From assembly GCA_013215385.1 (NCBI GenBank), contig JABSOY010000005.1, forward strand, positions 310,001 through 374,000: a stretch of 64,000 nt of DNA, given 5' to 3'. Made by a program: the position numbers and the translations under genes. Positions within the stretch are counted from its first letter, which is position 1. Every line of letters starts with the position of its first letter. Positions 13,171 to 29,776 of this stretch are shown in pieces. The notes under the pieces were generated by a model. That model ran no database searches. It saw only the letters and a list, made by a program, of their open reading frames with translations, and was not told the origin of the DNA. This stretch comes from Colwellia sp. Its GTDB lineage: Bacteria > Pseudomonadota > Gammaproteobacteria > Enterobacterales > Alteromonadaceae.

Positions 13171-13188
13171 AACGACAGCGCTATTATT
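13171..13188. promoter_or_regulatory. Degenerate LacI-type palindrome upstream of the small ORF
   Basis: AACGACAGCGCTATTATT shares the AGCGCT core and flanks with the better palindrome at 21096-21113 in front of the TonB receptor. It lies 71-88 bases upstream of the small ORF start. A further AGCGCT core occurs nearby at about 13205-13210. Functional status is inferred only from the resemblance. Confidence 0.4.
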
Positions 13189-13252
13189 GGTAATGGCTCT
13201 ATTCAGCGCTAAATTTTAATTATATTAAAGTAGGTCATTCATAAGTGTAATA

Positions 13253-13311: not shown

Positions 13312-13459
13312 TATCGTAATCAGTGTAACCACATGAAAAACAGAGGATAAAGTAAGTAGGTAAAATTGTGGCCACTCATGAAACGTTCTGCTTTTCGCGA
13401 AAAATCCGAATAGCCTCTAAATTTATCTATTGATAATAAAAACTATGAAAATTAAACCA

Positions 13460-14965
13460 TTACAGTCGTAAAAGTTCACTGTGCTTTTTAAAGTTTAATC
13501 CACAGCGTCTGATAAAATCACTCAAACCATTAATTTCGTGTTGATGGTTAGCATAATCAAACGTCTGGTCACTATCTTTTCTAGGAAATACCCCATATCC
13601 GGCCAGCAAGCACGCCCATGATTTTGGTTGATAACCTCCCACCAACTTATGCTTATGCATATCGCCGGAGAAATCTTGACTATTCTTCCAAAGGTATAAA
13701 ATTTTGCTTAAATTTTCAGAGATGTTTTTATTAGCCGCATTATCTCGCCAATAATCGCTATCGGTGCGTTGATTCGCTTTGTAATGACAGACAATATAGT
13801 CTCTGATGTCATCAAATCTCGAATTAATCTCTTTGTTAAAGGCATCTTCAAATTTATTAGTTCCCTTGCCTTCTTCAAAATACTGAATAAATTTCCCGAT
13901 AGTATTAAATGAAAGTGCAATTGCGGTTGCCTCTAAAGGTTCAATAAACCCTTGAGATAAACCAACGGCAAGACAGTTTTTGTACCAGTGTTTTTCAACA
14001 CGTCCTACTTTCATTTTTAAATGTTTTGCTTCGATATCACTTTCTAATAAACCTAAATGCTGTCTCAGTTCAGTTTCAGCCTGGTTTGAATCGATATAGT
14101 TATTGCTATAAACATAGCCATTACCAAAACGATTTCTGAGCGGGATCTGCCAAGCCCAACCGTTAGACAACGCGGTGGCTTTAGTTGCTACGGGAAGTAC
14201 TGGTGATATTTCACTTGGCATCATAACGGCGGCATCGTTGACTAAATTATCTTTAAAACTCTGATAGCCGACCTGCAATGTCTTTTGCATCAGTAATGAA
14301 TTAAACCCTGAACTATCAATAAAAAAATCAGCGGCTAACAGCGTGCCATCGTTAAGTTTTACCGAGCTAAGCTTGCCATCTTTTGTCACTAAAACGTCGG
14401 CGACAGTGCCGTATACTCTTTTCACCCCTCGGCTTTGAGCGTTTTCTGCTAAAAACTCTCCTAACAGGGCTGAATCGAAGTGATATCCGTAGGCAATGCC
14501 AAAAGGAAAAGACTCATCAGGCAAAGGTCCCAAATTGTTTTTTGATAAATAGGATTCTAAAAAGTAGTTATCTGGATGGGCGTCAACTCTATACCCTTGC
14601 ATTCGCGCTTGAATATTTTTTAAAAAAAGCGGCACGGTGAATATATCGTCTGTTTGCGCGGCGAATGGATGAAAGTAAGACTCAAAACCGGCAATAGTTG
14701 ACCACTTATCAAAGGTAATACCATTTTTGTAAGTTGCATTGCAACGGGGCATCCACTGTGAGTCAGCGACATTGATAGCATCAAAAAACAATTTCAAGTG
14801 CGGAGTACTGCCTTCGCCAACACCAATAATGCCTATTTCTTTAGACTCAACTAAGCAAATTTCAGTTGTTTTCCACTTAGATGCCAATAGGTTTGCAGCC
14901 ATCCATCCCGCCGTTCCGCCACCGACAATGATTATCTTTTTTGGTTTACCGTCGTTGTTTAACAT
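13460..14965 (-). CDS. Tryptophan-halogenase-like flavoprotein (first copy)
   Basis: FAD-binding GGGTAGWMAA lies at residues 15-24. The lysine that is catalytic in true halogenases is kept (K80 in ATYKNGITF), as are the WxWxIP motif (W270-W272, GWAWQIP) and the glutamate of EPLEATAI (E345). At 501 residues it has normal length. The family is named for tryptophan halogenases, but such proteins are very often encoded beside large TonB receptors in carbohydrate loci, and their substrate there is not established. It is 65 bases downstream of the cupin gene and probably co-transcribed with it and the second copy. No flavin reductase is nearby. Confidence 0.88.
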   Translation of the reverse strand: MLNNDGKPKKIIIVGGGTAGWMAANLLASKWKTTEICLVESKEIGIIGVGEGSTPHLKLFFDAINVADSQWMPRCNATYKNGITFDKWSTIAGFESYFHPFAAQTDDIFTVPLFLKNIQARMQGYRVDAHPDNYFLESYLSKNNLGPLPDESFPFGIAYGYHFDSALLGEFLAENAQSRGVKRVYGTVADVLVTKDGKLSSVKLNDGTLLAADFFIDSSGFNSLLMQKTLQVGYQSFKDNLVNDAAVMMPSEISPVLPVATKATALSNGWAWQIPLRNRFGNGYVYSNNYIDSNQAETELRQHLGLLESDIEAKHLKMKVGRVEKHWYKNCLAVGLSQGFIEPLEATAIALSFNTIGKFIQYFEEGKGTNKFEDAFNKEINSRFDDIRDYIVCHYKANQRTDSDYWRDNAANKNISENLSKILYLWKNSQDFSGDMHKHKLVGGYQPKSWACLLAGYGVFPRKDSDQTFDYANHQHEINGLSDFIRRCGLNFKKHSELLRL

Positions 14966-15030
14966 TGTTATTTGCTCATCATTGATAATATTAAAAGGTT
15001 GTTTTTTTTGTAATAGTTATTTTGTAATAC

Positions 15031-16047
15031 TTACTTTTGTAACTTAGTAATGAAAAAATCTTTTATCGTTCTGACATCTTCGACAGCTAAGTCGCCGAGT
15101 ATATGTTGCTGATGTTCTGGAATGTAAGACTTCGGGTTTAGCTCTTGATGAAATAAGTAGTGATCGAACATGCATCGCCAAGCATTACGCTGTTTTGGGC
15201 TCAAGTCTCGCATAGCCAACAGTGCTAAGTTCAAACTATCAATTGGACTAGGCGACACTGCATTTCGCGCAAAAGCACCACTCCACCAGTAGTTCATTAA
15301 AGCATTCACTTTTTCCAAAGATTCAACATGATGCCACCAGAGCATAGGAATAAAAATGGCATCACCAGGCCCAAGCTCAACACTGTAGGCCTCGGCCAAG
15401 GCAAGTTTAAACAGGGGGTAACGTTCAAAATCAGGTTTATCAATATCCACCAAACTCGTGGGTGCACCTGCAGGGGTAAAATTAAGGGGACCCGGGTATA
15501 AGTGACATGTTTGCTCCGGTGGAAAAAGAATGAAGCGTCGCCGGCCAGCGACAACACAGGCAACATTATCAGAGCCATCATAATGGGTATTAACAATTCC
15601 TTCATTGCCAAGCCATAAGCGTGGCGCTACGTTAGGAAAAAACTCGGAACTATTTTCATTCACTAAACCGGGTAAAATATCTTGTACGAGTGTACTTTGC
15701 ATAGAAATAGCTGGGTAAACATCTCTATCGATCAACTCTAAAAGGCGGCCTAAAAAAAGATCCAATCGCTCCTCACCATGCAAGAAGTTTATATCGGTCA
15801 ACTGCTCATTGTAATAGAAACGTTTGTTGGCGGATGGCGGGGCAACGACCATTGCGGTCTTTTTCCCCCGATAAAACTTATTTAAATAAGCAACAAAATC
15901 ACTTGGCGTTTTATTCGCAGAAGTAACTAAGGGCCAACTTTTAGCAAACCCACGTATCACTATTGGCCTTTGACTAGGCACAATTTCCTCAAAAAATTGT
16001 TGAGCACTCAAGGTCGAATATTCTGGCATGGTTTTGTATATCGTCAT
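15031..16047 (-). CDS. JmjC/cupin-like domain protein (Fe(II)/2-oxoglutarate oxygenase type)
   Basis: The N-terminal FFEEIVPSQRPIVIRGFAKSWP is the usual opening of cupin_8 (JmjC-like) proteins. The iron-binding facial triad is present: His and Asp in NTHYDGSDNVACVV and the second His in WWHHVESL. RRRFILFPPEQ and LGPGDAIFIP are the expected core strands. It should be a cytoplasmic hydroxylase-like enzyme with unknown substrate. It lies between two halogenase-like genes behind a TonB receptor, a grouping repeatedly seen in Alteromonadales and xanthomonad/Caulobacter carbohydrate loci. Co-transcription is likely (gaps of 65 and 69 bases). Confidence 0.87.
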   Translation of the reverse strand: MTIYKTMPEYSTLSAQQFFEEIVPSQRPIVIRGFAKSWPLVTSANKTPSDFVAYLNKFYRGKKTAMVVAPPSANKRFYYNEQLTDINFLHGEERLDLFLGRLLELIDRDVYPAISMQSTLVQDILPGLVNENSSEFFPNVAPRLWLGNEGIVNTHYDGSDNVACVVAGRRRFILFPPEQTCHLYPGPLNFTPAGAPTSLVDIDKPDFERYPLFKLALAEAYSVELGPGDAIFIPMLWWHHVESLEKVNALMNYWWSGAFARNAVSPSPIDSLNLALLAMRDLSPKQRNAWRCMFDHYLFHQELNPKSYIPEHQQHILGDLAVEDVRTIKDFFITKLQK

Positions 16048-16116
16048 GGATATTTTTTATACCTTATATATGTACGCACATGTAAATAATAACGCACGGG
16101 ACCATTGCTATGTTAA

Positions 16117-17661
16117 TCAAGGCGTCTGGCAATGAGCCTGAATGTAATCATAGTGATTTGGCATTTTTAGCACAGTAGCACGGATATTTTTAACATTTTC
16201 ACTTAAGGTCTTTGCTAAATCTTGACTATGAAAGCCATCGAGCAAGGGATGATACTTTAGTGGCCGTATTTTCATTCCTTCTAAAATTGAACACCAACTA
16301 TCACGGGTAAAAAACTGCCCTGGCGTAGCTTCTATCTGGCCTCTTTTTCGAAATAAACTTATTTTTTCACGCAACGATTCGGGTATTGGCATATTTTGGC
16401 ACCATCGCCAAAAGTCCGTATCATTACGAGCCGAAGTACAATAATGCAAAATAATGAAATCGCGGATCTCTGCGTAGTCGCTATTGATTTTTTGATTAAA
16501 TATTCGTTCATTGTCAGCGTCAAAATCATTATCTGGAAAATGCTGGATGAAATGCACTAAGGTTTTATAGACCAAATGAATAGCGGTCGACTCTAATGGT
16601 TCGAGAAACCCGCTAGCAAGCCCTAGTGCTAAACAGTTGTTGTGCCAAATCTTTTTCCGTTTACCCGTAACAAAGGGGATAATTCTCGGTTCATTAATCA
16701 TTTTGCCGCTAACACTGTTGAGCAAGGTATCTAACGCTTGGTCGTCACTACAAAATTGACTGGAAAAAACATAGCCATTACCTATTCGATGTTGCAAGGG
16801 GATTTTCCAAGACCAGCCCGCATGTTGAGCCGTTGCTATTGTATACGGCACAGGGGGGCTTACTTGTTCGGTTTGTACCGTAACGGCGCGATTACAAGGT
16901 AGGTAATGCGACCAATCTTCGAAACCCACCTTTAAGGATTTATCGATCAAAAGCGCTTTAAAGCCCGTACAGTCGATAAAAAAATCACTGCTGACAGTCG
17001 AACCGTTTTCTAAATCTAGACTACGAATAAACGCTTTTTTATCAAGGTTAACTTTATTAACCGTTGCTTCTATTCTAGTTACTCCGCGCTTATGGCAAAG
17101 GTCTCGACAATAACTAGCAACTTTAACCGCATCTAAGTGCAAGGCATGAGCGTAGTTTGATAACACCCAGTTTTGAGGCTGATGTGGGGGTAACATAAAA
17201 CGTTCATTTTCGGCCATAATAGTGTTTGGCGAATAATCTCCCCAAGCTGTTACCTTGCCATCAGCAAGAGACTTTAACCAAGCTTGATAAAAATCGAAGC
17301 CATTAATATCTTTGCCAACTTTGCCAAAGGGATGGAAATAGCTTTCCCCTGGTGTTAACCAATCGTCGAAGCGAATGCCTAATTTAAAACTGGCGGAAGT
17401 TGCTTGTATAAATTCTTTGAGATCAATTTGGCATGCTTGCACAAAATCCATTATTGACGGTACCGTTGACTCACCCACCCCAATGGTTGCAATATCGGTA
17501 GATTCAACGACGGTAATCTTAACCTTACTGCCTCTTAAAGTAGTAGAAAGTAATGTTGCGGCCATCCAACCAGCCGTTCCACCACCTACAATACAGATAG
17601 ATTTTAAAGCATTTTGCATTAAGGGAGCCCTAGTTAGATCAAACATTAGATTAATCATCAT
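16117..17661 (-). CDS. Tryptophan-halogenase-like flavoprotein (second copy)
   Basis: Paralogue of the 13460-14965 protein, with GGGTAGWMAATLL for FAD, K93 in SFKLGIRFDDW as the halogenase lysine, GWSWKIP as the WxWxIP motif, and GFLEPLESTAIHL with the conserved glutamate. Length is 514 residues from this start. A start at 17619 (MQNALKSICIVGGG) would remove a 14-residue extension and bring the FAD motif nearer the N-terminus as in relatives, so the start is uncertain. It follows the TonB receptor after a strong hairpin at 17703-17740, which may reduce read-through. Substrate unknown. Confidence 0.88.
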   Translation of the reverse strand: MMINLMFDLTRAPLMQNALKSICIVGGGTAGWMAATLLSTTLRGSKVKITVVESTDIATIGVGESTVPSIMDFVQACQIDLKEFIQATSASFKLGIRFDDWLTPGESYFHPFGKVGKDINGFDFYQAWLKSLADGKVTAWGDYSPNTIMAENERFMLPPHQPQNWVLSNYAHALHLDAVKVASYCRDLCHKRGVTRIEATVNKVNLDKKAFIRSLDLENGSTVSSDFFIDCTGFKALLIDKSLKVGFEDWSHYLPCNRAVTVQTEQVSPPVPYTIATAQHAGWSWKIPLQHRIGNGYVFSSQFCSDDQALDTLLNSVSGKMINEPRIIPFVTGKRKKIWHNNCLALGLASGFLEPLESTAIHLVYKTLVHFIQHFPDNDFDADNERIFNQKINSDYAEIRDFIILHYCTSARNDTDFWRWCQNMPIPESLREKISLFRKRGQIEATPGQFFTRDSWCSILEGMKIRPLKYHPLLDGFHSQDLAKTLSENVKNIRATVLKMPNHYDYIQAHCQTP

Positions 17662-17702
17662 CCCGCGTTGTCAGGCGGGCATTACATTTTATCGTCAAAA
17701 AT

Positions 17703-17740
17703 AAATAAACTGCGCAGTGTTGCCACTACGCAGTTTATTT
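17703..17740 (-). terminator. Intra-locus hairpin between TonB receptor and halogenase genes
   Basis: Arms AAATAAACTGCG and CGCAGTTTATTT continue inward to a ~17-bp stem with one mismatch and a TTGC loop. On the minus strand it is followed by ATTTTT. It begins 24 bases after the receptor stop and probably ends or lowers transcription into the halogenase/cupin genes. Confidence 0.75.
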
Positions 17741-17764
17741 TACATCTTTTGCTTGTGTTTACGA

Positions 17765-20700
17765 TTAGAACACCGCATTAATACTCAAGGCATAACGACG
17801 GTCAGAGGTGAAGCTAAACGCATCGGTTAATGTGCCTTGCTGATTTTGTTGGTATTGAGTTTGCGTATCCGTACCAAGTACATTACTCACTTGCAGGCCA
17901 ATTTTAACATTTTCGCTAATGTTGTAATAAAGGCTCGCATCCATCATCCCCTGATCCTTTGAATATGCCGGTACAAATTCTTCAGACTCACGCAAAGTTA
18001 GCAGGTATGCTGAACGCCAGGTATACGCTAAGCGAAAGGAAATATCGTGCTTCTCATACATACCGACAATGTTAAAGTTCTTGTCAGAATAGCCCTGTAA
18101 CGGCAAACCAGTGAACTGACGAAAAGAATTGCGATTGTCAGTCACTGGTACACCTGCACCATTGGTTGAAAGTGTCTGAGTCGGATTGGTGTTTGGATCT
18201 TCCAGCCCATCTTGATCAATGTAGGTATAGTTAACCTGCAGACCTAAACCATTCCATATTCCTGGCAACATATCGTAAAATTGGCTGTATGCTAATTCGA
18301 TCCCACGAATGGTGCCAGAACCTGTGTTAGCTGGACCATAGGCAGACACGGGCGTGCTAATACCAGCAACTTCAACGTCGGTCGAGAATTGTTTATTTCG
18401 AATGATGTTATCCAGTTTTTTGTGGAACAAGCCAACAGTCATCGAACCTGCATCGGCAAAATACCACTCTGTGGTCAAATCAATATTAATAGACTCTTCT
18501 GGTTCTAAGAAAGCGTTACGTGCATTAGCACTGACTTCAATATTTTTTAGATCGACTGTTGGGTTAGTAGCTTCATCTTTAGGTTCAGAGGGATCTAGAT
18601 AAACCTCTTCGTAATCCAAACTAATGTTCATTTTGTTAGCAGAATCAACAAGACTTGGATAATAAAGGCTTTTAGAAGCGGCGAATCTCACTATCACTTC
18701 ATCAGTAACAGCCAAACTAAGGTTTAAGCTCGGTAGCACGGTCGTATAATCTGTACCGTCAATTGTGCTAGAGAAGCTTTCACCTGAAGCTAGTGCAAAA
18801 ATACTTGGATAGTCATTCAACATAACCTGATGAAGTGACCCCTCTTCATCGGTGCCACGTCTAGATGTTGGCGGTGTGTTGATGGCACCGGTAGATTGCA
18901 GTTGATAATCAACATAACGTAAACCAATGTTACCTTTAAGTATCATATCCGACTGTCCAAGGTCAAAGTCAAAATCGCCGCGAACATAAAACTCAGTACG
19001 TTCTGTTTTACTTGAACTAATATGACGAGGAGCAAAGTGACTGAAAACACGATCAGCTAAGTCTTCATATGCCAACGCGCAACCGCCGCTTCCATCCATT
19101 GCATTGCCATCAGCACTCCAAGTGCCACAACCATCACGTAGGGTTTGTCCGTAATTCTTTGCTAGGTCCATTTGAGGAAATAAAAAGCTGTTGTTAGCAC
19201 CGATTAAGGTATCGCCATTGTAATGGTCAGCAAAACTAACACGGTCGAATAACCCAGGAACAACTTGCGGTGAAGCATTATAGGAAGCTTGATCATTCCA
19301 AGGAGTACCTAAAGCCTGCCAACCTTCGTAATCGGTATCACGTATTATTAACTCTTTTTCAGAATAATAAAGTCCTGCTTTTATCGCGGTAAAAGTACCC
19401 GCTAATTTGTATTCTACATCAAACTTAAAGCTATCAGAGCTTGCTTCATTGTGCTCTTCTTGCTGCATACCGCTAGCCATTCGTAGAATGGGTCTGGTAT
19501 TAGCTTCAACGTCTGGAGGAGTAGATGTATTGGCATTCAAATACTCAATTGTGGGGGTGTCACCTCTTAAGTCCATGAAAAATGGTGCATGTTCACTGGC
19601 TTGATTACCATTAATTCTAGAGGTAAGTGAGTTATTGTGAACAATTTGCTCTGATTTAATATGCTGGTAATCTACCGCAACCGTTAGTAAATCTGTCGGT
19701 TTAAAGACGATATTCAAAGAGGTATCGTCAATGGTACTTTCGTTGTAGTTATAACGAGAACGAAACTGTAGGGGTAATTCCGGACTGGTTCCTCGACCGA
19801 CACCTGAAGTCAGATAGCCATTGCCATCAACGGTCAAAGGATGACTTTGATCGGTATCATCAAAGCCATCGAACCACTGAATGCCATTAGGTGCATAGGA
19901 TAAGAAGCCGCGATCACCAGAAGCAATAACATACTCTTGATACTCTAGTGACGCTTCAGAACTGATATGTTCTAAGGTAGCGGTAATTCTTTCATCGGTA
20001 CTCTGCCACTGTAAGCTGGCTGTGATCCCTTGGCGCTTACGATCGTTTTCTGCACTCGTTATGGTGTAACTCGCTGGCGCATACCAAGTCTCACCTTCAG
20101 GTTGACCTTCAAGTTCTTCAGCTTCATATTGTGGGTTATAAGCGGCCTCGTCCTCAGCTGAATACTGAACTGTATCTGCTTGGTCAGGACCACAGGCACG
20201 CCAATCTGAGGCACCAGGAATACAAGGATTAGAATACTGACCGGCAAGAATGCCAGGGCTGGGTGTTCCCCAAGCATCGTACGAGAAAGTATCAGCGGGA
20301 CCACGACTGTGAAAATTGCCTAAGCCGAAACCATCGCCACGTGTCTTAAACTCAGACTGAGATACTGCAATCAATACGCCAAACTTACCAGCACTAGTAT
20401 CCCAATTGTCAGAAAAAAGTGCACTGAATGATGGCGTCGTTTCTTCGCGGTAATCACCATAATTAGCTTGCACACCAACCGCAATAACCTGTTTGTCGGA
20501 ATCAAAAGGTTTTCGCGTAACTAAGTTGACTGTACCTGCTATGCCACCAGAAATTCGATCAGCGGTTTGGCTTTTATAAACCTCTACTGCACCTAATAAT
20601 TCTGCAGGGAAATCCTCATAACTTAGGCCGCCATTGGGATTGGCACTGAATGAATCGCGACCATTAATTTCGCTACGCACACGGTCTAAACCGCGGACCA

Positions 20701-21046
20701 ACACCCCCGTACCTTCATCGGCAAAATGTTTTGGGTCACTAGATGACGCGAAACGCTCAATAGTTACACCAGGTAAACGTTGCAGCGCTTCAGTAACAGA
20801 TACATCAGGTAGGGCGCCAATATCTGATGCTGTAATTGCATCCATGACAGTGTCAGCATGTCGCTTCAGACTTTGCGCACTTTCAATACTGTTACGCATA
20901 CCGCGGACTTCGATTACTTCGATCTCTTCAGCGCTTGCTTGTTTTTTATTCACTTCATCGGCTGAAAAAGCCAAAGGTGAAAGTGAGCAAGTAATTGCAG
21001 TGGATACTGCAATTACTAGTCGTTTTTTCTGAAACTTATAAGACAT
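17765..21046 (-). CDS. Large TonB-dependent outer-membrane receptor (carbohydrate type)
   Basis: Signal peptide of about 28 residues (ending PLAFS), a TonB-box-like IEVIEVRG, then a plug domain with DAITASDIGALPDVSVTEALQRLPGV and GVLVRGLDRVRSEINGR. A long beta-barrel follows and ends in RYALSINAVF with terminal Phe. The 1093-residue length and this plug wording are typical of receptors for oligosaccharides in Alteromonadales, Caulobacter and Xanthomonas rather than siderophores. It should import substrate across the outer membrane using TonB/ExbBD, which are not in the window. Upstream lie a LacI-type palindrome and a 59-bp module. Context points to chitin or GlcNAc oligosaccharides; this is inferred. 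Confidence 0.92.
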   Translation of the reverse strand: MSYKFQKKRLVIAVSTAITCSLSPLAFSADEVNKKQASAEEIEVIEVRGMRNSIESAQSLKRHADTVMDAITASDIGALPDVSVTEALQRLPGVTIERFASSSDPKHFADEGTGVLVRGLDRVRSEINGRDSFSANPNGGLSYEDFPAELLGAVEVYKSQTADRISGGIAGTVNLVTRKPFDSDKQVIAVGVQANYGDYREETTPSFSALFSDNWDTSAGKFGVLIAVSQSEFKTRGDGFGLGNFHSRGPADTFSYDAWGTPSPGILAGQYSNPCIPGASDWRACGPDQADTVQYSAEDEAAYNPQYEAEELEGQPEGETWYAPASYTITSAENDRKRQGITASLQWQSTDERITATLEHISSEASLEYQEYVIASGDRGFLSYAPNGIQWFDGFDDTDQSHPLTVDGNGYLTSGVGRGTSPELPLQFRSRYNYNESTIDDTSLNIVFKPTDLLTVAVDYQHIKSEQIVHNNSLTSRINGNQASEHAPFFMDLRGDTPTIEYLNANTSTPPDVEANTRPILRMASGMQQEEHNEASSDSFKFDVEYKLAGTFTAIKAGLYYSEKELIIRDTDYEGWQALGTPWNDQASYNASPQVVPGLFDRVSFADHYNGDTLIGANNSFLFPQMDLAKNYGQTLRDGCGTWSADGNAMDGSGGCALAYEDLADRVFSHFAPRHISSSKTERTEFYVRGDFDFDLGQSDMILKGNIGLRYVDYQLQSTGAINTPPTSRRGTDEEGSLHQVMLNDYPSIFALASGESFSSTIDGTDYTTVLPSLNLSLAVTDEVIVRFAASKSLYYPSLVDSANKMNISLDYEEVYLDPSEPKDEATNPTVDLKNIEVSANARNAFLEPEESINIDLTTEWYFADAGSMTVGLFHKKLDNIIRNKQFSTDVEVAGISTPVSAYGPANTGSGTIRGIELAYSQFYDMLPGIWNGLGLQVNYTYIDQDGLEDPNTNPTQTLSTNGAGVPVTDNRNSFRQFTGLPLQGYSDKNFNIVGMYEKHDISFRLAYTWRSAYLLTLRESEEFVPAYSKDQGMMDASLYYNISENVKIGLQVSNVLGTDTQTQYQQNQQGTLTDAFSFTSDRRYALSINAVF

Positions 21047-21095
21047 AATTACTCCTCAATGTTTTATTATTATTTTTGGCATTAGCTATATCATA

Positions 21096-21113
21096 AATGA
21101 TAGCGCTGTCATT
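21096..21113. promoter_or_regulatory. LacI-family-type operator upstream of the TonB receptor
   Basis: AATGATAGCGCTGTCATT is an 18-bp palindrome with a single symmetric mismatch and a central CG, the usual form of LacI-family operators. It lies 50-67 bases upstream of the receptor start, where a repressor could block the promoter. No LacI-type gene is present in the window, so the regulator must be elsewhere. Confidence 0.6.
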
Positions 21114-21144
21114 TTTATAACAGTCCATAATAAATCGCCTAAAT

Positions 21145-21203
21145 ACCCTAACAAGGTTATTTAAAATAGAATAGGGCGTTGATGGTTAGCTATCACGAAA
21201 TGA
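21145..21203 (-). promoter_or_regulatory. 59-bp regulatory module, copy B
   Basis: Gapless partner of copy A (13253-13311), with AAGGTTA at 21153 and ATGGTTA at 21182 (29 bases apart) and the shared CCACTCATG at 21264-21272. It lies 99-157 bases upstream of the TonB receptor start and just downstream of the GH18-LytTR gene. It is a good candidate binding site for the LytTR domain of that neighbour, as LytTR proteins bind short direct repeats. Confidence 0.6.
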
Positions 21204-21408
21204 CAACGAAAAAACGATAAGAGTATGATAAAATAGAAATAAATGTAAAATCCATTATTACCCCCACTCATGGAATGTCAATTAAACTAAAGATTCAGTC
21301 TAATTACTTGCTAATTTTATACCAGTATCGTGGAAGTTTATGACCATAAAATTGGCTATCTTATAAAGCAAGAGTTAAACATTGTTGGTAATGTTGTGTC
21401 TATGCTGT

Positions 21409-24276
21409 TTACGTTTTATTGGTTGGAATAAACCATTCGGGGTGCATGCTTTTAACTGAAGCGAGGTAAGTTCGACTGACAGGTAGTCTTTCGTTGTTGA
21501 TAACAAGTTGGCACTTAAGCCTAGATTTATACTCGACATGGCTTACTTTTTTAGGGTTTACTAAATAAGAGCGATGAATTTGCAGCAAGGCGGTATCATC
21601 AAAATATAACTTTATCGTTCTGAGGCGCATAGTGATATAACGCGGATCCTTTTTGGATGGTAAATAAATACCGGTATATCCGGATTCGGCTTTTAAATAA
21701 TTTATTTGTTCTTTATGTCGAGTTAATTCATATAATTCAGCTAATGTTGATGGCTCTTTTACTAAGGATTTCAAGGCATGTTGAATCATCTGAGTTTGGT
21801 TTATTAACACTTTAATCAGTTGTTCATCATCACTTCGTAATGGCGTGTCGGTAAAAATTTCTATAACGAACTCATTGGCTTTAATTACTTTCTTTTGATT
21901 GCCTTGAAAAGAAGATTCGCCCAGCGTTGTAATCAACTGCTCATTTTGATAAATAGTAATCGTTGAGTCATATTGAAGATGATTAGCAAAAAAATGACAG
22001 GCTTGCTCTAAACCTTTAACAATGTCTTTACTCGGCATTGAAGATAAATTGAATAAAGCTATATGTTCGAAAAGTCCTTCTTGCTGCTTGGCACACTCAA
22101 CGGGGTCGTCTGCTAATTTTTGTTCATGGGTTAATGTTCTGTTTATGTTTAGCGTCGCGAGGTTTTTATCGTTCGTTGCAGGACTAGAACATCGTTCAGC
22201 TTTATCTTTTGTCGCATTAAACTTCAAAAATGAGATATTGGTCTGCTTCAATTCATCAAGGCGATAGCGGTCTGCTGCAATTCTAAATTGAAAGATACCT
22301 CTGCTATTTGTCACGAGTGTTAATTGGATATTCAATATTTGCGCTTGCATATAAAGGGGTTTTAATTGCGCATGATTGAGTATTTTATCAACCTTAGCTT
22401 GCTCGGCACCAATGAGGAAATCTACATGGCTGCCCTTACCGACAATTTCGATTATTAAGTTACTTTTATTCGATAAACTATCACAACAAAAAACACAGAG
22501 ATTATAAAAAAACTGCTGCACTTGGCTAGAGTCAGTAAATAATTGGCATTCTATAGCAGGTTGCCAATGAACTCGGCATTGTTTATTTATTTGCATCAAG
22601 CTGTCGGTAGCAAGTAAAATATCAGTTAAGTTAACAACTTCATTTTTTAGCCGCAGCGGTGAATAAGAGAAATTAGTTTGCGTTAATAGGGTATTGACTG
22701 GCTGCAGTAACTGCGAAGCAGAAATGATCAACTGCTCGGCACTAACGTTATCAATGAGATTGTTTTTCGATAACTGTGGCGATAAGGTTAATAAATTTAA
22801 CAATGGCCATTCTAAGTTTTTTAATTTTTGTTGTAGCAGTTGAAATTTTTTCAGCTCTGCCTGTTGGCTTTTATTACGCTGATTAATAAAAATTAAAATA
22901 CCAATAAATACCATGATAAGAATAATGAAAAATTGCAGTACGGGTATAAAAATATTTTTTTGTTGCTGCCATAATTCAATAGTTTTAAAGTATAATCCTT
23001 GAATAAAATGATAGCTAAAATAACTCGTTAATAGAACAAAATCACCATTATGCAATTTAATAACGGCGATACCTGCTAGGTTGTTTTGTTTGGCATAGTC
23101 TACTTTAGCGGCAACTGAACGTTCACTTTCGAAGGCAATAAAATGACCGTCAAATCGTTTGGTATTAAATAAATAACTACTTTTACTAAAATCATCCCAA
23201 TACTGTGGATAATCTTCTGACGCTAAAATATACGCTAAACTTTTTCGAGTATAAACACCGGTTTCACCACTGGACTTACTATCCCAGCTACCCCAACTCA
23301 ATTGCTCGGCCGCTTGTTGTAAACCATTATTAATATCTTTTACCCCTTGCCAGCCAATAGCAAATGACGGAAGCGCCAGAACAATTTTATTATTGGGAAC
23401 CTTTAACTCGTTTAACCGCTTAATTAATTGATCAACAGAAGGTTTCCCGTCTACTGCATACAAAGGTGCTAGATGATCAGTTGGTGTGGATAAATCACCA
23501 TAAATTCGACTTACATCTAAGATAACCAGATCGACACTGTCACCGATAGTAGAACCTTGCCAACCCTCAACTAAAGAATAAGGTGGTAGTGAAACTTGTA
23601 ACCAATAATTGTTATTGGGTAGTTGTTTTCTGATTTCAGCTAATAATAAACTTAAATTTTCGCCATCACTTTTTTGTTGAGTAACTTTGCCTAGCATAGA
23701 CCTGTTGGTCGGTTTAATAGGAAACTGCCAATCAATTTCGATACCGTCAAATTGATAGTTAAGCATAAATTCAATAGCTGAACGGGCTATTTTTTCACGG
23801 CCGGCAGTGGTTGATGTTAACGTTGAAAAATTTTCAGAGCGTCCCCAGCCACCAATGCTAATAATACTTTTAAGTGTCGAATATTGCTCTTTCGCTTTAA
23901 TAAGTTGACCAAAACTACCTAAAATAGTTTCTTGTTCTATTAAGGTATTAGGGTATAGGTGTTCAACATCAGCAAAAGGATCCCCGACTACAACGACACC
24001 TTCACTGGTTAAGTCAGCACTTTGATAAACTAAGTGAGTCATTAACTCTAAGGGTAAATCTTGAATATGGAGGTTTGGGCTATAAATCGACCACTGAGCG
24101 TAATAACCCATGATAATGGGAGCAGACGTTACATTTTTTGGTGAGGAGTCATTGGGATGTGCATAGGATAAGGAGCTACTCATTACTGTAATAATAATCG
24201 CAGTGCTAATAAGTACAATAAGTTGGATTTGATAATTGAAAAGAATTTTAATTCTATTGAGTAATATTTCTATCAT
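21409..24276 (-). CDS. GH18-like periplasmic sensor fused to a LytTR DNA-binding domain
   Basis: A 955-residue fusion. An N-terminal membrane/signal segment (about 18-39) leads to a GH18-like barrel (about 52-410; MGYYAQWS, SIISIGGWG). The active-site motif reads FDGIEIDWQFP: the third motif residue is E180 instead of Asp, and the catalytic acid position is Q184 instead of Glu, so hydrolysis is unlikely. A transmembrane helix follows (about 442-465), then a linker resembling a degenerate DHp/HATPase pair without a recognisable phosphoacceptor His or N-box. A LytTR domain ends the protein (about 857-946; LLQIHRSYLVNPKKV). I infer a one-component membrane regulator that senses chitin-type sugar outside and binds DNA inside. 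Confidence 0.85.
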   Translation of the reverse strand: MIEILLNRIKILFNYQIQLIVLISTAIIITVMSSSLSYAHPNDSSPKNVTSAPIIMGYYAQWSIYSPNLHIQDLPLELMTHLVYQSADLTSEGVVVVGDPFADVEHLYPNTLIEQETILGSFGQLIKAKEQYSTLKSIISIGGWGRSENFSTLTSTTAGREKIARSAIEFMLNYQFDGIEIDWQFPIKPTNRSMLGKVTQQKSDGENLSLLLAEIRKQLPNNNYWLQVSLPPYSLVEGWQGSTIGDSVDLVILDVSRIYGDLSTPTDHLAPLYAVDGKPSVDQLIKRLNELKVPNNKIVLALPSFAIGWQGVKDINNGLQQAAEQLSWGSWDSKSSGETGVYTRKSLAYILASEDYPQYWDDFSKSSYLFNTKRFDGHFIAFESERSVAAKVDYAKQNNLAGIAVIKLHNGDFVLLTSYFSYHFIQGLYFKTIELWQQQKNIFIPVLQFFIILIMVFIGILIFINQRNKSQQAELKKFQLLQQKLKNLEWPLLNLLTLSPQLSKNNLIDNVSAEQLIISASQLLQPVNTLLTQTNFSYSPLRLKNEVVNLTDILLATDSLMQINKQCRVHWQPAIECQLFTDSSQVQQFFYNLCVFCCDSLSNKSNLIIEIVGKGSHVDFLIGAEQAKVDKILNHAQLKPLYMQAQILNIQLTLVTNSRGIFQFRIAADRYRLDELKQTNISFLKFNATKDKAERCSSPATNDKNLATLNINRTLTHEQKLADDPVECAKQQEGLFEHIALFNLSSMPSKDIVKGLEQACHFFANHLQYDSTITIYQNEQLITTLGESSFQGNQKKVIKANEFVIEIFTDTPLRSDDEQLIKVLINQTQMIQHALKSLVKEPSTLAELYELTRHKEQINYLKAESGYTGIYLPSKKDPRYITMRLRTIKLYFDDTALLQIHRSYLVNPKKVSHVEYKSRLKCQLVINNERLPVSRTYLASVKSMHPEWFIPTNKT

Positions 24277-24480
24277 AAACCTATCGTTTAAAAGACTGAA
24301 ATCTATATATCAAACACTAAGTTACTGAGCATAACATTATATTTATTAAAACAACAAAGAATGTTGTCTTAAGTAATGCCAGTCGACAATTTATCAAAAT
24401 CGACGATAGTTAGCTAAAAAATCTAGCAGGTATGCGGTAACTGTATTTTCATGCTCAAGCAAGGGCATAAGCCATTTCTT

Positions 24481-25308
24481 TTAAAATGAGTTAAGGTGAT
24501 CTTGCCAGAATTTATCCTTAATTTCTTTTAATCGACCACTGCTTTGTAGTTTTTCTATCGCATTATCAAATGCTTTCATAAATTCGACAGAAACACCTGT
24601 TCTACTGACCATAAAAGATACCCCCACTTCATTCATTATTTTCACCATTTCGTAGGGTATTCCGAGTTTTGTTAAGTTAGTTTTTGCCTCATTCACATCT
24701 TTTATCAAAAGGTCGCTACGCATTGTTTGCAGCATTTTATATTCTTGTTCGGCGGTATCGATAAAATAAACATTCTTTTTGTTGAGTTTATCCATGGCGA
24801 AATTATTCATCTCATCGCCAAAGAATGTGCCCCGGGTATGAGTTAAGATAAGGTCATGTTGCTTAATATCACTAAGTTTGAAAATTTTATATTTATTGCT
24901 AAAGCCTTTTAATGCAAAAAGAGCAGAACGCTCAAATCTATAAGGTTTAGAGAAGTAGCCATATTCTTTTCTTGCTAACGTTGGAGTGACGCCATTGAGA
25001 ATAGCCGTTTTACCCTCTTTTATCTCCATGATACATCGAATCCAGGGACATTCGGTAATTTCAAATGTACAGCCAACTTCATTTAAAATTTCTTTGATTA
25101 TTTGATAATCTAGCCCAGTCATTATCCCGTGTTGGTTAATATAGGAATAGGGTAACCAAGTAGAATAGGAAAACTGTAGGTTAGTTGGACAGATATTTTT
25201 CGATTCGTTTTGTATGCCCAAGCTTAAATTTTTGGCGTAGCAAAAACTTAAGTTCATAGAACAAATGATTAATAAATAGCCGATAAAAAGGCTAAACAAG
25301 CGATTCAT
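24481..25308 (-). CDS. Family 3 extracellular solute-binding protein
   Basis: Signal peptide of about 25 residues (ending CYA), then a two-lobed SBP_bac_3 type domain: FSYSTWLPYSYINQHGIMTGLDYQIIKEIL at the start and ARKEYGYFSKPYRFERSALFA in the middle. At 275 residues it has the usual size of amino-acid-type periplasmic binding proteins. No ABC permease or ATPase is adjacent, so it may be a stand-alone protein feeding a sensor or another transporter. It is on the same strand as the GH18-LytTR gene, 204 bases upstream of it, and could be co-regulated. Ligand unknown. Confidence 0.8.
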   Translation of the reverse strand: MNRLFSLFIGYLLIICSMNLSFCYAKNLSLGIQNESKNICPTNLQFSYSTWLPYSYINQHGIMTGLDYQIIKEILNEVGCTFEITECPWIRCIMEIKEGKTAILNGVTPTLARKEYGYFSKPYRFERSALFALKGFSNKYKIFKLSDIKQHDLILTHTRGTFFGDEMNNFAMDKLNKKNVYFIDTAEQEYKMLQTMRSDLLIKDVNEAKTNLTKLGIPYEMVKIMNEVGVSFMVSRTGVSVEFMKAFDNAIEKLQSSGRLKEIKDKFWQDHLNSF

Positions 25309-25475
25309 TTTGACTGGTAATTTAGTTTAAATTTGCCCATAGTTTTATTGTAGTCGATAAATAAGTAGAAGTAATGCAACTGCTACCTATGCTATTTTAA
25401 GCATTGATTGTTTTTCTGTGATGAAAATCCGGTGCATAAACCAAAAAAGTCCGAGTATTTATAGGCCTTCACTGA

Positions 25476-25583
25476 ATCAACGAACAAATCTTTATAAGAA
25501 AATGGGGGCTTAAAGAAAATGAGTTCGACATTGCCTTTAGAGAAGAGCTAGTTAAGTCATTGGAAATGAGGTCAAAAAGATAG
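25476..25583 (+). pseudogene. Possible 3' remnant of a protein-coding gene
   Basis: An open stretch of 35 codons from after a TGA at 25473 to a TAG at 25581. It encodes a hydrophilic, protein-like peptide (contains GLKENEFDIAFREELV) but no start codon. A terminator-like hairpin follows about 70 bases later, as expected after a gene end. The family is not recognised. Confidence 0.25.
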
Positions 25584-25649
25584 CGGTGTTTTTTCTCGTT
25601 AGAAGGTGTAGGTTAAAACTAGACTGTCTTCCTCTATTACATATTAAAG

Positions 25650-25678
25650 TCCTGCGCTTAAATGAGCGGGGATTTTTT
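25650..25678 (+). terminator. Terminator-like hairpin
   Basis: AGTCCTGCGCT and AGCGGGGATT pair with one bulge and wobble pairs, followed by TTTTTT. It would act on plus-strand transcription, for which only a gene remnant is visible upstream. Confidence 0.5.
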
Positions 25679-25990
25679 ATATACTTGTCCTGAAATGTAT
25701 TTACATCTTTAGGGCTTGTTATGACCAAGGAAAATTTATCTTCTGCGCGGGCGAGGGTCTAATCTATGTTCATCGGGGGGCTAGCTCAAAATTTTGTGCT
25801 AAATGTTTGAGGGAAATCATTCCCGCTAAGCTTGTAGGTTTTATTTAAGCCTATGTAAAGTAATGATAATAGGCTTAAATTATCTTTAAACACTTAAATT
25901 AAATCAACATGTTTCCATATCGGTGGCGAATCTATTTAATAATGTTAATAAATCTTATACACTTTCCTTAAATTAAAGCTAAACATAAAA

Positions 25991-28807
25991 TTAACTAAAA
26001 CTTTCGGCCCATTGATTAAGTAGCTGTTGAGCAGATTTTTTTTCTGAAAAATCTCGTTTACTATTCACTACTTCTAACAAGGTATTAAAAGCTTCTTTAT
26101 CTTGTTTGAGTGCTTTTAAGGTTAAGGCTAAATGGAATTTTATTTCTAGTTTAGAATAATTAATGGCAAGGGCTTGTCTAAATAAGGGTAAGGCTTTATC
26201 AAATTCATTGGTTAAATAATACACCCAACCTAAAGTATCTAAAGCATCAGGGTATGACTTTGCAATCGATAATGACGCTAAAGCATACTCTTTCGCTTTT
26301 TTATAATCTTCTAATTTCAAGGCCACAAAAGCAATATTATTGAGTAAAATAGGCTGTTTTTCATATGTTTTAATTAATACTAAATATATGTTGTAGGCAA
26401 ATTGCCAGTCTTTTTTCATCATGTAGCCTTCTGCTAGGCTTGTATTGAGTAAAAAACTCTTTGGCTGTTTTTTAAGTGCTTTTGTTAGTAGTTTAATGGC
26501 TTTATTTACTCGATTCTGAGCTAAATACACTAAAGCTAATCCGGCTGTTGCTTTTTCTTCATGATTAGAAAGCAAAGCTTTATAACGTTGTGCCGACTCT
26601 GAAAGTTGTTTTGCTAAATAATAAGAATGTGCAATAACCAACATAAGCCTATCAGGTAACTTCTCTGAACCTAAAAACGTCTCAATAATAGCAATTGCTT
26701 CTTTAGATCTTCCTTCTTGATTTAATAAACGAGTAACAGCCAATAATGGTGGTTGTTTGTTGCTGGCCCAAGCAATAGATTTTTTATAAGTAGCAACGGC
26801 TTCTTCAATTTGTTTATCTGCTTTATAAGCATTGGCGATATAAAAATAAACCTCCGCTTTGTTAGCCTTATACTTTAATGCAGCGGTAAAGCTTTGAATT
26901 GCCTTGTCTGTATTGCTTAGTCGTTGAAAATGCTGACCAAGAAGAATATATATATCAGCAGTTTTTTGATGGTTAATTAAATAGCTTTCTAAAATTTCAA
27001 CAGCTTCAGTCATATTACCAACATTCAGGTAAGCATATGACAGTTGTTTCAAAAGTTCAGCGTTATTTGGTGATTTTTTATAAGCTTTTTCTAACCATAA
27101 AACAGATTGATCAAATTGCTTGTTTCTTGCGTAAATTTTACCTAATGCTTTAATAAATTTTATGTTGTTTGGCTGAACTTCTAATGCATTATTTAATAGC
27201 GATATCGCTTGTTCGTTCTGTTTATTTAAGAACATTATTTCAGATAAACTAATAATTGATTTTTCATGCAACGGGGTGCTTGCTAATACTTTTTTAAAGG
27301 ATTTTTCGGCACTAGCTTTATCGCCAGTGACTTGATAAACAAAACCTAAATGATGAATATATTCTTTATTGTTGGGATCTGATTGAGCCAATTTTTTAGC
27401 AAGTTGCCTTGCCTTAGCAACTTTTCCTGATTTTACATAAGCCTCTACTAGTAAAAAACTTATGGTTTCTTGGTTTACAGATGCTGAATTTACCGATAGC
27501 AATGAAGTGACCGCTTTATTGTATTCTCCAAGCCCTATGTAGCTTTTAGCTAATTGAGATTTGGCATTAGCCGAATCTGGAACGATTATTTTTACTTGTT
27601 CAAAATAAAAATTAGCTTTTTCAAATTGTTTTAGGCGCAGACTAACAAGACCTAATAAGGATAAAACCCTTGGGTTTTTTTCTTCGATAAAATAGGCTTT
27701 ATTCAACATTGATTGGGCTGAGGTGTATTTTTCCTGCGCTATATCAATGGTTGCAGCAAAGCTCATGGCTTTAGTGTTTAAACTATCAATGGCCATATAA
27801 CTTTTAATATAAATTGCTGCATTAAGATAATCTTGTTGATGGAAAGCTACCACACTAGCTAAGTAATAATAGCTAGGATTGTTTTTTAAGGTGTCAGCAT
27901 CTAACCGAGAGAGGGTTTCACTTATTTTTTTAAGTTGGATCTTACTTGTATCTTCTGCACTTCCTTGCCCTTTCGCTTTATTAATATCGACCATAGCTTG
28001 AAGAAATTTTGCTTTAGGCTCATAGGGAACTTGTTCCAAAATGGTTGATATATCTTGTTCAGCATTTTGATAACTAGCTAATTCAATATATAGACTCGCT
28101 CTGATAATTAGAGCTTGTATATGTTTATTGTTTTCAAGTAATGCGGTATTTATTGCTTTTAAGGCAGCTTGCTGTTGAGCTAAATTTTGATGAATACTTG
28201 CTTTAAATATCCATGCTTTTAGAGGCGGAAAGTAGCCAGCAAGTACATCATCAACGACCTCTAGGGCTTTTTGGTATTTAAAATAATTGATATTAATTTG
28301 TACTAAACCAAGTTTAGCATTTTGGCTGCCCTCATTTAGCGTCAAAGCAAGTATATAATTTTCTTCAGACAGCTTTAACTGTCTTAACCCTAAAAAGGCA
28401 TGACCTTTTAGTACGAAAATTTTTGAAGCGAGTATTTCATCTTGAACGGGTTTATTTAAATAAGTTAACACTTTGTTGTATTTGTGTTGCAATAAGTACG
28501 ACTCGGCAAGTAATAACAATAGTCGACTTCTATCTGCACCTAAACGGCTAGCCTTTTTAAGTTCATCTTCTGCTGCACTGCCCATATTTGAAGCTAATAA
28601 TACTTCGGCCATTAAAATTCTAGCGGTTAAGTTGTTAGGCTGTTTTAGTGTTAAATTTTTAAGGTGAATTAAAGCTTCAGAATAGTGATTAGCTTTATAG
28701 GCTACACTTGCTTTTTCATAGAGTACATCGGTACTCTCTTGTGCGTAGCTAAACGATGATGACAAAGTTAAACAAAGAAATAAATTCGTTATCAGCTTAA
28801 ATTTCAT
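25991..28807 (-). CDS. PrsT-like TPR-repeat protein (PEP-CTERM/exosortase-associated)
   Basis: Signal peptide of about 22 residues (SSFSYA), then about 900 residues of tandem TPR repeats throughout. Size, arrangement and phrases such as YLNVGNMTEAVEILESYL and YPDALDTLGWVYYLTNEFDKALPLFRQAL match the XrtA/PEP-CTERM-associated TPR proteins (PrsT type). Many PrsT proteins are lipoproteins, but no lipobox cysteine is visible here. It is divergent from a gene for a PEP-CTERM protein, 288 bases apart, which supports the association. Role is probably in exopolysaccharide or surface-protein sorting at the envelope. The exosortase itself is not in the window. Confidence 0.75.
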   Translation of the reverse strand: MKFKLITNLFLCLTLSSSFSYAQESTDVLYEKASVAYKANHYSEALIHLKNLTLKQPNNLTARILMAEVLLASNMGSAAEDELKKASRLGADRSRLLLLLAESYLLQHKYNKVLTYLNKPVQDEILASKIFVLKGHAFLGLRQLKLSEENYILALTLNEGSQNAKLGLVQININYFKYQKALEVVDDVLAGYFPPLKAWIFKASIHQNLAQQQAALKAINTALLENNKHIQALIIRASLYIELASYQNAEQDISTILEQVPYEPKAKFLQAMVDINKAKGQGSAEDTSKIQLKKISETLSRLDADTLKNNPSYYYLASVVAFHQQDYLNAAIYIKSYMAIDSLNTKAMSFAATIDIAQEKYTSAQSMLNKAYFIEEKNPRVLSLLGLVSLRLKQFEKANFYFEQVKIIVPDSANAKSQLAKSYIGLGEYNKAVTSLLSVNSASVNQETISFLLVEAYVKSGKVAKARQLAKKLAQSDPNNKEYIHHLGFVYQVTGDKASAEKSFKKVLASTPLHEKSIISLSEIMFLNKQNEQAISLLNNALEVQPNNIKFIKALGKIYARNKQFDQSVLWLEKAYKKSPNNAELLKQLSYAYLNVGNMTEAVEILESYLINHQKTADIYILLGQHFQRLSNTDKAIQSFTAALKYKANKAEVYFYIANAYKADKQIEEAVATYKKSIAWASNKQPPLLAVTRLLNQEGRSKEAIAIIETFLGSEKLPDRLMLVIAHSYYLAKQLSESAQRYKALLSNHEEKATAGLALVYLAQNRVNKAIKLLTKALKKQPKSFLLNTSLAEGYMMKKDWQFAYNIYLVLIKTYEKQPILLNNIAFVALKLEDYKKAKEYALASLSIAKSYPDALDTLGWVYYLTNEFDKALPLFRQALAINYSKLEIKFHLALTLKALKQDKEAFNTLLEVVNSKRDFSEKKSAQQLLNQWAESFS

Positions 28808-29095
28808 TTAATTCTCAATATAATTTCAATTAACTATATATAAATATTGCTTATTTAGTGGGAATATAGCAATAAAAAATGCAAAAAATTGTTTGTTGAA
28901 TTTTATATATTTACCATTACTGTATTAGTAATGGTTGGTTTTTTTGTCAGTTTCTTTTACACAAAAGAGATGGTAGATTTTTGTTTTGAAAGACTTTTCC
29001 TTTATCATTTTGATATGATATTGTTTTTTTTACATGGTCTGTTTTTTGCACTGGTTAAGGTAATAGAACATCCATCTAATTTATGGACATTTACT

Positions 29096-29776
29096 ATGAA
29101 AATCATTAACACTTTATTGAAACAAGCTAAAAATATATTACTTGTATTATCAATTGCGTTATTTTCAATGTCTAGCTATGCAGGGAATACTTTAGTCTCG
29201 GTTTTAATCAGTGGCAATGATTGTGATGGAGATTCTCCTTTCGCAGGTCAAGGATTTGCAGACTGTACAATAAATATAGAGGGTACAGAATTAGCTTTTG
29301 TACTGACTAAATTTGGTTATGATGATGGCACACCCGAAGGACATGAAGAGGGGGATCATTACACTTACCTAGAAGAACACTGGGATATTGAAGAAAACGA
29401 TAGTGAGTATAAGTCAGGTACTTGGACTACTCCGACGGGAGCTGGCTATCCTGAAGTGTCCTTTTGGTCTGCAAAAGCAGGTAACTCTGGCTTGAATCTT
29501 TTCTGGTATGTAACAGACGCGGATTATGCTACCGAGTGTGATCCAAAATTAACCTTGTCATGTATGAGTGCCGCAGTATCGGTAACTACTGGAACTTGGT
29601 CGACCCCTTATAATAATGCTAATAGCCAAGCGGCTTTATCACACCTAACCTTTTTTGGTGGAGTATGCCTTCAAGATTGTGGACCCAACACAGAAGTACC
29701 AGAGCCTTCTACGATAGTAATATTTGCCTTTGCGTTAGGTTTATTACGTATACAATCTAAACATCGTAATAGATAA
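29096..29776 (+). CDS. PEP-CTERM sorting-signal protein
   Basis: The C-terminus has the tripartite PEP-CTERM signal: VPEPST, then a hydrophobic stretch (IVIFAFALGLL), then a basic end (SKHRNR). This marks it for processing by an exosortase. I set the start at 29096 (MKIINTLLKQAKNILLVLSIALF...), which gives a clear signal peptide ending SYAG; the frame is open further upstream to 28889, but that extension is a hydrophobic AT-rich artefact. The mature ~200-residue region is acidic, with Cys pairs, and of unknown function. It is divergent from the PrsT-like gene. Probably surface-exposed or secreted. Confidence 0.82.
   Translation: MKIINTLLKQAKNILLVLSIALFSMSSYAGNTLVSVLISGNDCDGDSPFAGQGFADCTINIEGTELAFVLTKFGYDDGTPEGHEEGDHYTYLEEHWDIEENDSEYKSGTWTTPTGAGYPEVSFWSAKAGNSGLNLFWYVTDADYATECDPKLTLSCMSAAVSVTTGTWSTPYNNANSQAALSHLTFFGGVCLQDCGPNTEVPEPSTIVIFAFALGLLRIQSKHRNR

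Follow-up and report, generated by a model that had tools for sequence, protein, structure and literature searches.

The stretch analyzed here, called the window below, comprises 64,000 nt of Colwellia sp. DNA (assembly GCA_013215385.1, contig JABSOY010000005.1, positions 310,001 to 374,000 of the forward strand). Its subject is a gene for a predicted membrane-bound regulator, in which a glycoside hydrolase family 18 (GH18) barrel lacking catalytic residues is joined to a LytTR DNA-binding domain. The gene is one uninterrupted open reading frame (ORF) of 955 amino acids with an ATG start, and it and its parts lie as follows in window coordinates.

21409–24276, minus strand: regulator gene (955 aa), encoding a pseudo-GH18 putative sensor, a transmembrane segment, a degenerate histidine-kinase-like region, a linker and LytTR (ORF, Pfam and a family of 20).
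23062–24114, minus strand: pseudo-GH18 domain, residues 55–405, with DGIEIDWQ replacing DGxDxDWE (Pfam, residue table, and PDB homologues 5gzu, 6bt9 and 1itx).
22885–22941, minus strand: predicted transmembrane helix, residues 446–464 (hydropathy 3.18).
22102–22881, minus strand: degenerate histidine-kinase-like region, residues 466–725, without the phospho-acceptor His (profile A4 against PDB histidine kinases).
21448–21711, minus strand: LytTR DNA-binding domain, residues 856–943 (Pfam LytTR, with a match in 19 of 19 family members scanned).

The Pfam domain search, which an earlier note on this DNA had proposed, placed Glyco_hydro_18 on residues 55–405 (E 2.2e-58, 198.9 bits against a cut-off of 29.6) and LytTR on residues 856–943 (E 1.3e-14, 54.6 bits against a cut-off of 22.6); the barrel also matched PDB chitinases with an E-value of 2.1e-61. 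Between the two domains, the window protein gave no Pfam match at E ≤ 1. Hydropathy marked an N-terminal segment at residues 19–37 and a strong transmembrane segment at 446–464, and a segment above 1.6 follows the barrel in 18 of the 20 family members described below, the exceptions being L061 and the split L072. Hydropathy and Pfam together place a transmembrane segment and LytTR in one chain, the combination that marks the transmembrane transcription regulators (TTRs), with the membrane location predicted. The ORF, Pfam and hydropathy results bear out the description in the earlier note of a single 955-residue frame with a GH18-like barrel, a transmembrane helix and LytTR.

The motif of the window barrel reads D177-G-I-E180-I-D182-W-Q184: Gln stands at the acid/base Glu, Glu at the first Asp of the DxDxE core, and D182 is retained, which is the ExDxQ pattern that the note had pointed out in claiming Q184 for the catalytic Glu and Glu for the third motif residue. 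Further residues were compared with Bacillus circulans chitinase A1 (ChiA1, PDB 1itx). In the alignment, E204 corresponds to Q184, the catalytic Tyr (Y279) to S256, and the Trp at the floor of subsite −1 (W433) to I406, two further losses; W53/Y56 corresponds to W62/Y65, a pair that presumably belongs to the distal minus subsites of chitinases. Substrate-assisted catalysis with Gln in place of Glu was considered and dismissed, as neither the Tyr nor the first Asp of the core remains.

Relatives were sampled from 59 related genomes, 394 genomes of the order (queried with the cytoplasmic half) and one genome collection, and the stretches obtained were then read. In the order, 9 of the 394 genomes matched at E ≤ 1e-10, and the scan of the collection gave a single relative, L035, from a Colwellia metagenome-assembled genome. 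Class and phylum searches (369 and 398 genomes) gave no extra GH18-LytTR protein among the matches listed, which, the window's own aside, stop by query or profile position 419 and thus represent GH18 alone. At least 20 GH18-LytTR proteins were collected, including that of the window; the count is a lower bound, as up to two candidates per genome were scored in the class and phylum searches and up to three in the order search. A contig-end fragment (G203:C70) was excluded from the 20, L072 (genome G264), split by a stop codon, was included, and alignment A1 holds 19 of them. At L072 (8932–11712), the regulator falls into two frames separated by a TGA between the GH18 and LytTR halves, which represents either a decayed gene or a sequence error.

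None of the 20 regulators retains the catalytic Glu, which is replaced by Arg in eight, Gln in four, Pro in three, Asn in three, and Ile and Thr in one each; the catalytic Tyr is likewise gone from all 20. All 12 GH18 enzymes used for comparison, taken from these loci and from the window's genome, have both the D-x-D-x-E core and the Tyr; since the enzymes were in part selected on the motif, the Tyr is the less constrained test. The set excludes the neighbors of L066 and L069, as well as the N-terminal domain of the L065 enzyme. The claim of an inactive barrel is thus supported by the residues of the window protein and across the family. W62 is conserved in 20/20 regulators and Y65 in 16/20, the equivalent of W285 is present in 15, the window protein not among them, and the −1 floor Trp in four. 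A tree of 31 GH18 domains put the 20 regulators on one side of a branch with support of 100/98 and 11 enzymes on the other; the twelfth enzyme was dropped for its length, and the tree carries a long-branch warning that includes L061 and L065. Since the regulators form one clade and all lack the catalytic residues, disarming of the barrel looks old and single, with the catalytic position drifting afterwards, and such drift fits relaxed selection on catalysis with the barrel kept.

The region between membrane and LytTR is recognizable through the family rather than through the window protein. Profile A4, built on the middle region of the ten long members (922–994 aa), matched PDB histidine kinases (6qrj, E 2.8e-08; ZraS, 9jfj, E 3.3e-08), and its best match starts at the TPL of the HELRTPL motif. 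Pfam HisKA matches at E ≤ 0.1 occurred in 5 of 19 members scanned (best 1.1e-05); the window protein itself gave none, and by phmmer its middle region matched L035, L057 and L058 alone. The kinase-likeness of the linker is therefore, as judged from these profiles, carried by the family, and with that qualification the degenerate kinase-like linker of the earlier note was recovered. A phospho-acceptor His is present at the aligned position in 0/10 long members, L073 and L075 having a His one residue beyond it; nine short members (588–742 aa) keep hardly any or none of the kinase-like part between the transmembrane segment and LytTR, and Pfam scans of the window protein and 19 members found no receiver domain. 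Taken together, these three results make a one-component reading natural, and a mechanism that does not need a phosphorelay, as the note had also held, is likely. A low-confidence structural model suggests that a GAF-like piece may precede LytTR.

The genes next to the regulator include a TonB-dependent receptor (TBDR) and, further along, an intact GH18 gene.

17765–21046, minus strand: TBDR of 1093 aa (TIGR01782), which opens the predicted target operon (synteny in L035, L057, L058 and L142).
16117–17661, minus strand: Trp_halogenase-family protein 1 (Pfam PF04820).
15031–16047, minus strand: Cupin_8 protein (Pfam PF13621).
13460–14965, minus strand: Trp_halogenase-family protein 2 (Pfam PF04820).
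11786–12820, minus strand: intact GH18 enzyme (DGLDIDIE, 344 aa), predicted second target (Pfam 1.5e-33; PDB 6xyz, E 1.6e-45).

The order of regulator, TonB receptor, Trp_halogenase-family protein, Cupin_8 protein, second Trp_halogenase-family protein and intact GH18 is common to the window, L035 and L057; at L058, it is regulator, receptor, one halogenase-like protein and GH18. Chitin-type genes adjoin 14 of the 20 regulators, an intact GH18 in ten cases and a ChitinaseA_N/polysaccharide-deacetylase protein in four (L060, L064, L067 and L070). The f12 lineage (L059–L071; genomes G045, G069, G089 and G108) has at least three pseudo-GH18-LytTR paralogues per genome, and 10 of its 12 regulators adjoin an intact GH18 (six) or a ChitinaseA_N/deacetylase gene (four), as if each senses something different. 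Just upstream of the window regulator, on the same strand, lies a gene for an SBP_bac_3 periplasmic solute-binding protein (24481–25308, minus strand), a possible partner in this species only.

Alignment of the regions upstream of the receptor gene from four loci revealed a pair of direct repeats ahead of a putative −10 element, and a scan of the window located a second pair, not used in defining the motif, ahead of the intact GH18 gene.

21267–21274, minus strand: direct repeat A of the receptor promoter, core TCCATGAG, ahead of the TonB receptor operon (promoter alignment and scans).
21192–21199, minus strand: direct repeat B, core TTCGTGAT, 75 bp after A, receptor promoter (promoter alignment and scans).
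21145–21150, minus strand: TAGGGT, putative −10 hexamer (extended −10 type), 41 bp downstream of repeat B, receptor promoter (offset equal in 6/6 promoters).
13375–13382, minus strand: direct repeat A of the GH18 promoter, core TTCATGAG, ahead of the intact GH18 gene (window scan).
13300–13307, minus strand: direct repeat B, core TTCGTGAT, 75 bp after A, GH18 promoter (window scan).
13253–13258, minus strand: TAGGGT, putative −10 hexamer (extended −10 type), 41 bp downstream of repeat B, GH18 promoter (promoter comparison).

The receptor-promoter copies, with core YYCRTGAK, are spaced 75, 75, 73 and 76 bp apart in the four loci, and the pair before the GH18 gene has the same 75-bp spacing; L035 carries both pairs, and L057 and L058 carry the receptor pair. 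At the receptor promoter, the pair overlaps 21145–21203, the stretch singled out in the earlier note. When the 5.1-Mb genome was searched at 75-bp spacing with up to three mismatches, only these two promoters were found, and the reversed control gave none. A looser pattern (73–76 bp) run over the 59 relatives gave two sites in G000 and one each in G003 and G026, all at the regulator locus, and these are the three genomes with a locus-linked regulator; four of the other 56 genomes had one match each and the reversed control gave four in all, a background of ~0.07 per genome. Dinucleotide-matched simulated sequences yielded no pair in 5000 tries for each of four regions, with the reservation that the motif had been chosen after seeing those regions. 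The extended −10 (TGnTAnnnT) begins 38 bases after the second repeat, with its hexamer at 41, in 6/6 promoters from four organisms; TAnnnT would occur by chance at a given offset with a probability of 0.0355, but the offset was picked after inspection. The window and L035 promoters are from close relatives and are not independent, and L058 is so distant that its intergenic sequence otherwise barely aligns.

A counterpart of the predicted operon without the regulator occurs in G028 (L142), where the TBDR (76% identity), the halogenase-like proteins (77 and 78%), the cupin protein (76%) and a divergent GH18 (55%) are all present. The stretch contains no regulator, the genome having elsewhere one 278-aa LytTR frame alone, and there are 0 repeat cores on either strand between the TBDR and GH18 genes; two copies of the palindrome described below, one exact and one with one mismatch, are kept between genes. 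G028 is, at the level of sequence, a natural control: the operon that lacks the regulator also lacks the repeats.

In the window, about 430 nt separate the putative −10 of the intact GH18 gene from its start (12821–13253, minus strand), a length shared with L035. Some 100 nt of this leader hardly vary and form a long hairpin with a run of T after it, resembling an attenuator or terminator; upstream of the hairpin stretch is a small ORF (MLIEFRKNII...) whose ribosome-binding site is good. Rfam, at the gathering threshold over 11000–26000, found only a tRNA and no match for this hairpin.

A second type of putative regulatory site lies in the receptor leader.

21098–21111, no strand assigned: LacI/NagR-type palindrome (TGACAGCGCTATCA on the minus strand), downstream of the receptor −10 (promoter alignment and genome scan).

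The palindrome TGACAGCGCTRTCA occurs exactly at three places in the genome and with at most one mismatch at 11, against none for the reversed control. The other two exact copies are beside lacI/pgi and beside a GH20 gene in a cluster with a TBDR and nagK, whose product matched NF046058 with 439.7 bits against an NCBIfam cut-off of 370. One of the 11 places is the receptor leader and four are in this lacI-pgi-TBDR-GH20-nagK cluster; the remaining six are mixed. C1 is within the coding part of a GH18 chitinase gene, and C4 (G000:C4:167096, L108; one mismatch) falls early within the gene for a GH19 chitinase that has CBM5/12; C40 (G000:C40:227445, L112; one mismatch) is 233 bp before an acetyl-CoA synthetase gene, C6 precedes the gene of a putative adhesive domain, C38 is inside an ORF without a Pfam match, and C7 is between unidentified ORFs. 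The sites at L112 and L108 are possible further members of an N-acetylglucosamine (GlcNAc) regulon. NagR, of the LacI family, controls GlcNAc genes in gammaproteobacteria, including TonB receptors and GlcNAc kinase in Xanthomonas, and its regulons widen to chitin genes (PMC5343134); by analogy, the palindrome-bearing cluster looks like a NagR-type GlcNAc regulon. NagR is a cytoplasmic repressor, which here would act beside the GH18-LytTR protein, and the resemblance is in the LacI-type palindrome rather than in a compared NagR motif. The exact string has also been used as a designed CcpA catabolite-responsive element (cre), of consensus TGWNANCGNTNWCA (PMC10992428). The string fits LacI-family operators in general, the name NagR therefore rests on gene neighborhood, and NCBIfam gave no name for the LacI protein of the cluster. 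By this genomic association, and without recourse to the GH18 argument, the palindrome links the predicted receptor operon with the metabolism of GlcNAc or chitin; what it reports is GlcNAc use, not chitin as such nor the ligand of the barrel.

We think it probable that the regulator is a pseudoenzyme sensor, a one-component inner-membrane activator with a defined cis element, for chitin-derived GlcNAc oligosaccharides. The GH18 barrel, predicted to lie in the periplasm and unable to hydrolyze, would be the receptor for such oligosaccharides, entering through the neighboring TonB receptor, or for a periplasmic partner carrying them. The signal would pass through one transmembrane helix and a catalytically dead kinase-like stalk to LytTR, which would bind the two direct repeats, about seven helical turns apart with the nearer one 41 bp before the −10 hexamer, and activate two units: the TonB receptor/halogenase-like/cupin operon and the intact GH18 gene. 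The LacI/NagR-type operator downstream of the receptor promoter would add derepression by GlcNAc metabolism, so that expression of the receptor operon would call for external oligosaccharide and internal GlcNAc together, as in an AND gate.

Several observations weigh against this proposal. The window equivalents of ChiA1 W433 (I406), Y279 (S256), W285 (L262) and W164 (R146) are all changed, the W62/Y65 pair alone being retained among the positions compared, and chitin binding is not assured with several sugar-contacting residues replaced; since the −1 floor Trp and cleft aromatics are among these, a sugar, if bound at all, must be held in another way than in a chitinase. Six of the 20 regulators (L062, L068, L071, L072, L073 and L075), whose neighbors were partly scanned, have no chitin-type gene seen nearby. 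Structure predictions from two-sequence alignments were poor (predicted local distance difference test 41.3 for the GH18 part and 39.9 for the cytoplasmic part); folds were assigned from sequence. The barrel might instead dock a periplasmic partner, either a solute-binding protein or a product-loaded intact GH18, without touching the sugar itself, an alternative we hold to be unlikely though it deserves weight. It draws on the loss of the −1 floor Trp in 16/20 regulators, on the changed cleft aromatics of the Colwellia group, on the SBP_bac_3 gene beside the regulator, and on the precedent of ChiS with its chitin-binding protein (CBP; PMC11856585). Against it, no match to the SBP gene turned up at E ≤ 1e-15 when the stretches from L035, L057 and L058 were compared. 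The retention of W62 in 20/20 regulators and of Y65 in 16/20, presumably in the role they have in the minus subsites of chitinases, also argues for contact with sugar.

An alternative of about the same modest standing is that the ligand is a GlcNAc-containing glycan other than chitin, such as peptidoglycan fragments or host or algal glycans. The intact GH18 weakly matches the EndoS barrel family (2e-06), and the palindrome is informative on GlcNAc rather than on chitin. On the other hand, the closest solved relative of the intact GH18 is the candidate chitinase 6xyz (E 1.6e-45), and relatives of the regulator adjoin CBM5/12 GH18 chitinases or ChitinaseA_N/deacetylase proteins.

Another factor might recognize the repeats, with the GH18-LytTR protein controlling something else; this we consider improbable, more so than either alternative for the ligand. 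The motif was first spotted by promoter alignment, and its 75-bp spacing differs from the usual 12–13 bp gap between LytTR half-sites; 19–24 bp from either repeat, no copy matched better than 8 of 11 positions. The 16 other relatives collected (L059–L075) showed no repeat pair in their stretches, nor did the regulator-GH18 gaps of four f12 relatives that were compared, nor the genomes G033 and G045, whose family members are encoded at other places. In L057 and L058, in which GH18 lies 105 and 247 bp beyond the operon, respectively, the second pair is absent, L058 having one core ahead of GH18. Set against this, the genome has only two such sites, both at the regulator's own locus; among the 59 relatives, sites at the locus coincide with a locus-linked regulator, and the G028 operon has neither regulator nor repeat cores. 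A phosphorelay still at work, in which the histidine-kinase-like region or a partner kinase drives the LytTR output, is very improbable: the region is conserved enough for profile detection and 5/19 members match HisKA, but the phospho-acceptor His is missing from its aligned position in 10/10 long members, the Pfam scans showed no receiver domain, and in short members most of the region itself is gone.

The pseudoenzyme-sensor reading can be extended to the history of the family, though here we see the chances as evenly balanced. A chitin-receptor clade may have arisen once from a disarmed chitinase, with the dead GH18 sensing, the dead kinase relaying, and LytTR activating chitinase and TonB receptor via paired repeats under a NagR AND gate; short members without the kinase would mark a path to the one-component switch, and, in lineages with at least three paralogues, these would sense different chitin products.

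Elsewhere in the window, at 25991–29776, an XrtA/PEP-CTERM tetratricopeptide repeat protein, PrsT (TIGR02917, 584 bits), lies beside an ORF with a PEP-CTERM-like tail (VPEPST..., by eye).

Known systems share parts of this arrangement. ChiS is a hybrid kinase with a receiver domain and a different DNA-binding domain, and its kinase-like core needs no relay. In Vibrio cholerae, where it governs the chitin program as a TTR, it is a membrane-anchored, chitin-responsive regulator that binds promoters directly and is activated by chitin-bound CBP (PMC11856585). Both proteins are membrane-bound regulators of chitin-type genes, by prediction for that of the window, which differs in having GH18 and LytTR; a receiver, as in ChiS orthologues, was missing from the Pfam scans of the window protein and 19 members. 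All LytTR instances of Caulobacter crescentus contain transmembrane regions (PMC10269533), and TTRs, like the window regulator, combine sensor, transmembrane segment and DNA-binding domain in one chain; the main text of that paper, in which neither 'glycos' nor 'hydrolase' appears, describes none with a GH sensor. In tobacco, CHRK1 is a plasma-membrane receptor whose GH18-type outer domain is said to be inactive through loss of the Glu (PMC10573068), whereas another account predicts that domain to be enzymatic and counts 91 plant GH18-kinase proteins (PMC5485988). CHRK1 shares the GH18-type outer domain with the window regulator but is a plant protein with a kinase output. The GH modules of RsgI-type anti-sigma factors belong to other GH families. 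In Clostridium thermocellum, such a module has been proposed as the outer polysaccharide sensor across the membrane (PMC3413522), with sigma factor release as the output, unlike LytTR.

The claim in the earlier note that no regulator of this layout had been described is nearly, if not entirely, right. No account of a GH18-LytTR regulator was found in the partial, open-licence literature covered, and a description elsewhere is possible; a figure legend for Andreprevotia ripae, however, lists LytTR among the domains of GH18, GH19, GH20 and lytic polysaccharide monooxygenase (LPMO) proteins, and 4 of the 25 secreted GH18 proteins of that organism have no catalytic Glu (PMC8802321). The available text discusses the LytTR protein neither as a sensor nor as one of those four, and the comparison is by the legend.

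Chitin is a main marine source of carbon and nitrogen. If the proposal is right, the TTRs, which are little studied, would gain an example for which the DNA site is defined, the class of ligand is likely, and the operon that has neither regulator nor site serves as a natural control. Comparison across the family would also show how the phosphorelay of a sensor kinase can be given up while the protein continues, or comes, to act on DNA. Bacteria, finally, would have turned a chitinase into a sensor that controls chitinase, as has been proposed for CHRK1 in plants.

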